Positions 27,037 to 28,542 of a DNA stretch of 49,847 bases are shown here, piece by piece. A program made the translations under genes and the position numbers. The notes under the pieces are model-generated. The model did not search any database, was not told where the DNA came from, and saw only the letters and a program-made list of their open reading frames with translations. Position 1 is the first letter of the stretch; each line of letters opens with the position of its first letter. The stretch lies in the NCBI GenBank assembly GCA_017552985.1, contig JAFZNO010000089.1:1-49847 (forward strand). The letters are read 5' to 3'. The stretch is from Lachnospiraceae bacterium (lineage in GTDB: Bacteria > Bacillota > Clostridia > Lachnospirales > Lachnospiraceae).

Positions 27037-28542
27037 ATGCAAATGAAAGCATTATCTTTAAAGCTTCTTTCGGAAGTCGTTGTGAGTAAGCGGAAGGCGC
27101 TGAAGCTGTCGCAGGCAGAGGTGTCGAAGAAGACGGGGATCAACCGTTCGCTTTTGTCGAGGCTGGAGTCGGCGGAGTATGGGCCGTCGGTGGATCAGTT
27201 GCTTGCACTGTCGGAGGTGCTGGGATTCCAAATGTCGGAAGTGATCGTGCAGGAGGATGAGGACGGCGCGGCAAAGGCACCGAAGCGTATGAAGATCGCG
27301 GTGGCCGGTACGGGTTACGTGGGTCTGTCGCTGGCAGTTCTTCTGGCGCAGCATAATGACGTGACGGCGGTGGACATTATTCCGGAGAAGGTGGAGAAGA
27401 TCAATAACTGGCAGTCTCCGATCCAGGATGATTATATCGAGAAGTATCTGGCGGAGCATGAGGAGAGAAAGCTTAGCCTGAAGGCGACGACGGACGGCGC
27501 TTCGGCTTATGCGAAGGCAGATTTTATCATCATCGCGGCACCGACGAATTATGATCCGAAGACGAATTTCTTTGACTGTTCGGCGGTGGAGTCAGTGCTG
27601 AAGCTTGTCAGGGATACCACGGCGAAGGCGAAGAAGCAGCCGACCATCGTGATCAAGTCGACGATCCCGGTTGGCTATACGGCGGAGATCCGCGAGAAGC
27701 TGGGCATGGACAACATTATCTTCAGCCCGGAGTTTTTGCGCGAGAGCAAAGCCCTGTATGACAATCTGTATCCGAGCCGCATTATCGTTGGCGCGGACAA
27801 GGCAAACGAGGAGGCAGCGAAGACGTTTGCGGCGCTGCTGAAGCAGGGTGCGATCAAGACGAACGTGCCGGTGCTGTTTGTGGAGACGACGGAGGCGGAG
27901 GCGACGAAGCTTTTCGTCAATACGTATCTGGCACTTCGCGTGTCTTATTTCAATGAGCTTGATACCTATGCGGAGGTGAAGGGGCTGAACACGGCTTCGA
28001 TCATTAAGGGCGTGTGTCTGGATCCGCGCGTGGGTGATTATTATAACAATCCTTCCTTTGGTTACGGCGGATATTGCCTGCCGAAGGATACGAAGCAGTT
28101 GCTGGCAAATTACGCGAGCGTGCCCCAGAACATGATGAGCGCCATCGTGGAAAGCAATCGCACGAGAAAGGATTTCATCGCGGACCGCGTTCTGGAGATC
28201 GCAGGCACGTACGGCAACAGTGAGTCGTATTCCAAGGCAAAGGAGAGCAAAGCGAGGGAAACGGTGGTTGGCGTGTACCGCCTGACCATGAAGGCGAACA
28301 GCGATAATTTCCGCCAGAGCAGCATTCAGGGCGTGATGAAGCGCATTAAGGCAAAGGGCGCGACGGTGGTGATCTATGAGCCGACGCTGGAAAACGGCAG
28401 CACGTTCTTTGGTTCGCTTGTGGTGAATGACCTGAAGAAGTTTAAGAAGATGTGCGGTTGCATTGTTGCAAACCGTTATGACAGCGTGCTTGACGACGTA
28501 GAGGAAAAGGTTTATACCCGTGACCTTTTCAGGAGGGACTAG
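27037..28542 (+). CDS. XRE helix-turn-helix fused to UDP-glucose 6-dehydrogenase
   Basis: A 501-aa fusion in one uninterrupted frame. Residues 16-65 form an XRE/Cro-type helix-turn-helix ([20 protein letters not shown]). A short acidic-to-basic linker follows. From about residue 86 it is a complete nucleotide-sugar dehydrogenase: [18 protein letters not shown]ossmann loop, FSPEFLRES, and the catalytic loop [14 protein letters not shown] with Cys347. It oxidises UDP-glucose to UDP-glucuronate with 2 NAD. The start is ATG 27037 or, with better ribosome-site spacing, 27043. The epimerase gene follows within 2 nt. An enzyme carrying its own DNA-binding domain could report substrate or cofactor state to its promoter. 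Confidence 0.93.

Follow-up and report, generated by a model that had tools for sequence, protein, structure and literature searches.

A UDP-glucose dehydrogenase carrying an XRE-type helix-turn-helix is a probable regulator of its own gene in Firmicutes

Introduction

Trigger enzymes with DNA-binding domains of their own are already known (PMC8249747). NadR, PutA and BirA of Escherichia coli each combine a metabolic enzyme with a DNA-binding domain that regulates genes of their own pathway, and the protein described here has the same general build. PutA resembles it further in binding solely the spacer between its own gene and putP (PMC8249747). Unlike these three, the present protein is a nucleotide-sugar dehydrogenase, its DNA-binding domain belongs to the XRE family, its hosts are Gram-positive, and it is known here from sequence alone. 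The layout of its predicted DNA sites has a counterpart in GalR, which likewise uses two palindromic operators around the promoter of the E. coli gal operon. In contrast to the protein studied here, GalR has no enzyme part and a LacI-type DNA-binding domain.

In this study, we describe a fusion of a helix-turn-helix (HTH) domain and a UDP-glucose dehydrogenase (UGD), encoded on a contig of a Lachnospiraceae bacterium (GCA_017552985.1, JAFZNO010000089.1; the 49,847 nucleotides analysed are called the window). Searches of an open-access library listed no paper describing such a fusion. We report how widely it occurs and describe palindromic sites upstream of the fused genes; these predicted matching DNA sites are new in this analysis.

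Results

The fused gene and its protein

The features of the locus are collected in Table 1. A reading of the letters alone (the sequence-only reading) had proposed one uninterrupted frame joining a full XRE HTH, given as residues 16-65, to a complete dehydrogenase with catalytic Cys347. All three points are borne out. The frame is single, encodes 501 amino acids and contains no internal stop codon. Its translation probably starts at the ATG at 27043, giving 499 amino acids, rather than at 27037, because homologues mostly begin with MK(x)(x)S. Pfam HTH_3 matches residues 18-68 (E 2.3e-11, 44 bits against a gathering score of 23), and Cys347 aligns to Cys260 of the solved dehydrogenase 1dli, a position occupied by Ser in 1dlj.

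Table 1. Features of the fused locus, in window coordinates
Feature	Position	Strand	Basis or remark
Predicted operator O1, GTTGCTGATAGCAAC, perfect palindrome	26903..26917	.	17-bp form 26902-26918
Predicted sigma70-type promoter TTGACG-N17-TATTAT, between O1 and O2	26949..26977	+	Prediction, sequence reading
Predicted operator O2, GTTGCTAATAATAAC, imperfect palindrome, just 5' of the ribosome-binding site	27011..27025	.	17-bp form 27010-27026
HTH-UGD fusion gene	27037..28542	+	501 aa from first ATG
XRE/Cro-C1 helix-turn-helix, residues 18-68	27088..27240	+	Pfam HTH_3, P22 C2 similarity, covariation
UDP-glucose dehydrogenase domain, residues 85-501	27289..28539	+	Pfam, PDB alignments
NAD-dependent epimerase, next gene	28544..29617	+	Pfam, PDB search (from 28547)

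The HTH also aligns with the C2 repressor of phage P22 (E 1.4e-5), a protein without an enzyme domain. Repressors of the Cro/C1 (XRE) type are dimers that act on palindromic operators. From the usual build of the XRE family, we take the recognition helix to lie around INRS, residues 35-38. Among 87 aligned fused proteins E44, P50 and Q54 are invariant, and Q26 and R37 nearly so.

In the enzyme part all three UDPG_MGDP_dh domains score above the Pfam cut-off (N-terminal 85-260, central 286-375, C-terminal 412-489), as does the nucleotide-sugar dehydrogenase model TIGR03026 of NCBIfam (311.9 against 189.8 bits). The Ugd equivalog NF011631 is matched over its full profile and stays under its cut-off (534.8 against 757 bits). 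By these profiles, the enzyme is Ugd-like and lies outside the narrow NF011631 model. Over its whole length it aligns with Ugd/HasB-type UDP-glucose dehydrogenases of known structure (3phl, E 1.3e-149; 1dli, E 2.6e-139), with the active-site residues kept. These alignments run from residue 81 or 85 to residue 501, and neither chain has a match to the HTH. The seven presumed catalytic residues, Thr209, Glu232, Glu236, Lys291, Asn295, Cys347 and Asp351, are all kept in 100 of 101 fused proteins, and the one exception (L180) was truncated at an in-frame TAG during extraction. The genome of the window encodes one other member of the family at E 0.001. It is only 31% identical, so that the fused protein is the sole close Ugd found there.

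Spread and history of the fusion

Among loci L001-L112, 53 encode the HTH and the enzyme in this order, 52 of them in one open frame, which bears out the earlier judgement that the fusion is no sequencing artefact. The remaining locus, L064 from Clostridium polysaccharolyticum DSM 1801, is interrupted within the enzyme part by a TAG near residue 178. An in-frame TAG at about the same residue is also seen in L180 and L140; in all three it may reflect a pseudogene or a sequence error.

The sequence-only reading had suggested looking for the same order across Lachnospiraceae genomes, and it recurs over several groups of Firmicutes. We counted by eye the listed matches that start no later than query residue 20, with the own genome included wherever it had been sampled. 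By this count fused proteins occur in at least 6 of 101 whole genomes sampled from the genus of the window, at least 36 of 397 from its family and 5 of 391 from its class. The family around a Streptococcus suis genome gave 13 of 295, and the order around an Erysipelotrichaceae genome 31 of 294. Locus L126, from a 37th genome of the family sample, is also fused. Titled relatives include Lachnospiraceae, other Clostridia, Erysipelotrichaceae, Streptococcus and an Enterococcus, among others; many are metagenome bins whose labels may be wrong. Unfused relatives outnumber the fused ones among the matches listed.

Since a tree of 188 enzyme domains needs at least 12 changes between the fused and the unfused state, these domains indicate that the fusion was lost, regained or passed on, the direction of the changes not being readable from the tree. 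The same count led us to set aside a single origin. We also considered an HTH encoded apart in relatives, which would have spoken against the reading as one protein. Searches of L001-L112 and then of all 279 loci gave no such case: within flanks of at most 1.5 or 6 kb, no separate HTH frame (30 amino acids or longer, blastp E 0.01) was found beside an unfused ugd gene. Two HTH-like frames in all stand apart, one in L003, which lacks ugd, and one in L036, which lies more than 2 kb from a plain ugd gene and still further from the fused one. Three-frame translations of the 360 nt upstream of four unfused genes (L069, L076, L085, L100), read by eye, contained no leftover HTH.

Palindromic sites upstream of the fused genes

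Upstream of the fused genes we found a consensus palindrome, TGTTRYT-N3-ARYAACA. The main set comprised 81 fused loci with less than 90% identity and at least 150 nt of upstream sequence, and the controls were 87 unfused ugd genes. Perfect 6-bp inverted repeats in the fused loci exceed dinucleotide shuffles mainly at odd spacers from 1 to 9. At spacer 3 they occur in 32 of 81 fused loci against 8.5 expected from the shuffles, and in 17 of 87 unfused ones. The controls are themselves above shuffle level (17, 18 and 20 of 87 at spacers 3, 5 and 7, 260 nt upstream), and their repeats have no common half-site among those listed for spacer 3. GTTGCT, GTCATT and GTTATT, which lead among the spacer-3 half-sites of the fused loci, are absent from the ten leading half-sites of the controls.

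A symmetric position weight matrix with half-site TGTTRYT, trained on the same 81 fused loci that it scored, reaches a score of at least 10 in 62 of them, in 2 of the 87 unfused loci and in none of 81 mononucleotide shuffles. One of the two positive controls (L070) is a plain ugd gene divergent from a fused gene, and the intergenic operator is common to both. Two sites of this score are present in 37 of the 81 fused loci. No site scoring 10 was found in 19, among them six of the seven loci from the S. suis family search. In two loci of that search (L184, L185) the palindrome near the start codon of the fused gene is another one, TTTGTTG-N10-CAACAAA. When the unchanged matrix was applied to 20 later non-redundant loci, 17 scored at least 10, compared with 1.75% of shuffles, and 8 had two sites. 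All 20 come from the search of the order around the Erysipelotrichaceae genome, and the training set includes relatives of some of them.

Within genomes the exact sites are nearly confined to the fused gene. In the 3.86-Mb genome of the window, TGTTGCTNNNARYAACA occurs without mismatch at two places, both upstream of the fused gene, and GTTGCTNNNAGCAAC is perfect at one place only. In eight other fusion-bearing genomes TGTTGCYNNNRGCAACA was found at 9 places in six of the eight, and all 9 adjoin a fused gene; its reversed control pattern was found at none in the same eight genomes. The own genome holds seven sites with one mismatch, and the one read in context (L116) falls inside a reverse-strand frame. 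When as many as two mismatches are allowed, matches to the 17-bp pattern barely outnumber those to its control there (33+31 against 28+30), so that we make no claim either way on a wider regulon. The distribution of the predicted sites agrees with an autoregulator that has a single target or very few.

Recognition helix and site sequence

Covariation between HTH residues 5-79 and the half-sites was scanned in 62 loci. Residue 38 has the highest permutation z-scores with half-site positions 3, 4 and 5 (6.6, 5.4 and 7.1, scores that ignore ancestry); at position 5 it ties with residue 25, and when raw mutual information is used, it is equalled or surpassed by other residues at positions 4 and 5. 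Ser38 goes mostly with TGC, Ala38 with TAT or TAC, and Gly38 and Thr38 mostly with CAT. A tree-based test had only five supported independent pairs, a number with which no comparison can reach significance. For Gly/Thr versus Ser/Ala at position 3, four pairs changed as predicted, none in the opposite sense, and one was unchanged. For Ser versus the rest the mean counts were 3.0 as predicted, 0.1 opposite and 1.8 unchanged at position 4, and 1.8, 0.2 and 3.0 at position 5.

The first 53 loci had suggested a one-residue code (Ser for TGC, Ala for TAT, Gly or Thr for CAT). In the later loci this code was confirmed for Ala alone, with TAY in 38 of 42 half-sites. Two Ser loci and one Thr locus among the later loci with sites have mainly TAT or TAC, against the simple rule. 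Residue 38 thus appears to contribute to the choice of site, and other positions or ancestry matter too.

Promoter layout and operator spacing

In the window the -35 hexamer begins 39 bp downstream of the centre of O1 (26910). The centre of O2 (27018) lies 108 bp from that of O1, in the predicted 5' leader adjoining the ribosome-binding site. The gal operators are 113 bp apart, and 108 bp is one of the spacings at which gal repression was lifted (PMC4693257), which counts against the mechanism proposed below. Two sites 100-165 bp apart are present in 28 fused loci, and in 24 of these the best promoter lies between them (shuffle null 0.49). In many other fused loci, unlike gal, the paired sites are nearer to each other (about 42, 52 or 62 bp), or there is a single site. 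In L183, L087 and L239-L252 the two best sites are often 42-43 bp apart, and in several of these loci the pair is flanked by the fused gene and by an epimerase gene that diverges from it.

Spacings between sites scoring at least 8 have a best period of 10.9 bp, reached by 0 of 2000 jitter nulls. The signal is weak at 12 or above (period 10.8, 36 of 1000 jitter nulls), and at 14 and 16 or above the best periods, 9.05 and 9.15, are not helical. Because the periodicity is weak for strict sites and absent for the strictest, helical phasing is unproven and looping is put forward here as a hypothesis.

Neighbouring genes

The best PDB match of the downstream epimerase is 5u4q, deposited as a dTDP-glucose 4,6-dehydratase, followed by 6zl6 and 6zlj, which we take to be UDP-glucuronate 4-epimerases. 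The gene is a probable UDP-glucuronate 4-epimerase, and from these matches the operon probably makes UDP-glucuronate and UDP-galacturonate. Among 101 fused loci, 97 of which have at least 600 nt of downstream sequence, 31 have a homologue of this epimerase on the same strand and no more than 1.5 kb downstream (tblastn E 1e-8, a cut-off that other epimerases may also pass); in 8 it lies divergently upstream. A plain ugd paralogue follows the fused gene in 8 of the 101 (L034, L036, L046, L050, L051, L057, L123, L124) and is divergent in one (L070), the apparent paralogue in L180 being the second part of its own interrupted gene. Where the match is full length, the adjoining paralogue is about 60% identical to the fused copy. 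This side-by-side arrangement suggests a division of labour between sensor and enzyme.

Elsewhere in the window, a ThuA domain and an AP_endonuc_2 (xylose-isomerase-like) barrel share one frame (32726-34519), giving a two-domain protein of sugar metabolism. Another frame (12574-15228) encodes an 884-aa protein with a PHP domain and pieces of an AAA ATPase. Proteins of 1075 aa (40259-43486) and 557 aa (29633-31306) have no Pfam match at the thresholds used, and a tRNA-Ser (gct) lies at 47767-47854.

Discussion

We consider it very probable that this UDP-glucose dehydrogenase is a trigger enzyme acting as a transcription factor of its own gene, probably as a repressor and possibly by looping. 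The sequence-only reading had named it a trigger-enzyme candidate, and the gene-control part of that proposal gains support from the palindromes at fused and rarely at unfused ugd genes. The reading as an autoregulator follows from three properties of the sites: they track the fusion, they are nearly exclusive to the promoter of the fused gene, and they vary with the recognition helix. We infer DNA binding, repression rather than activation, the geometry of dimer and loop, and the signal from these sequences.

In the mechanism that we propose, the two N-terminal HTH domains of an enzyme dimer would read one TGTTRYT-N3-ARYAACA palindrome, and the bound enzyme would repress its own operon of ugd and the downstream epimerase gene. 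Repression is expected because O1 and O2 flank the promoter. It could come about by blocking RNA polymerase, perhaps together with bridging of O1 and O2 into a loop as by GalR at gal. BirA and NadR are biosynthetic trigger enzymes. By analogy with them, our guess for the signal is corepression by the product UDP-glucuronate; autorepression without any ligand is nearly as likely. More tentatively, and with some doubt, an oligomer of the enzyme may loop its own promoter, with the filling of the active site by NAD or UDP-sugar opening or closing the loop.

The same layout could serve activation, O1 aiding RNA polymerase from upstream and O2 limiting it. O1 lies 66-69 bp upstream of the -35 hexamer in 11 of the 28 two-operator loci, and at gal one of the promoters is also activated by GalR bound to the external operator (PMC4693257). 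Repression, however, usually has the layout seen here, with an operator in the leader and a pair that flanks the promoter, and several loci have their sole strong site near the start codon; we regard an activator or dual regulator as unlikely. The palindromes might also not be DNA operators at all and instead form RNA hairpins in the 5' leader, as an attenuator or in control of translation. The position of O2, in the predicted leader and next to the ribosome-binding site, would suit this, whereas O1 lies upstream of the predicted promoter and thus outside that transcript. Moreover, conservation extends beyond complementarity to the actual half-site sequence, TGTT(R)(Y)T, and no Rfam family reaches its gathering score at this locus. 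Such hairpins are very improbable.

It could further be argued that the HTH is vestigial or purely structural, for example as an aid to oligomerisation, and that the palindromes belong to another regulator. The greater number of unfused relatives among the matches listed and the fused loci without a clear site (19 of 81) are in keeping with this. Against it, the sites go with the fusion rather than with ugd as such (62 of 81 versus 2 of 87), in the nine genomes scanned all their exact matches adjoin the fused gene, the recognition helix varies with them, and HTH residues are conserved over 87 proteins. An idle HTH is thus quite unlikely in our judgement, and autoregulation by the fused enzyme is the reading that we prefer.

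In many bacteria UDP-glucuronate is the entry point to acidic polysaccharides. If an enzyme loop does respond to the filling of its active site, flux into UDP-glucuronate would directly set the transcription of the gene, and the fused copy would be mainly a sensor where a plain ugd paralogue adjoins it. The predicted operators, together with a recognition-helix residue that tracks their sequence, make up a directly testable feedback circuit from enzyme to gene. If autoregulation holds true, a further class of enzyme would join the few trigger enzymes to which a DNA-binding domain is fused.
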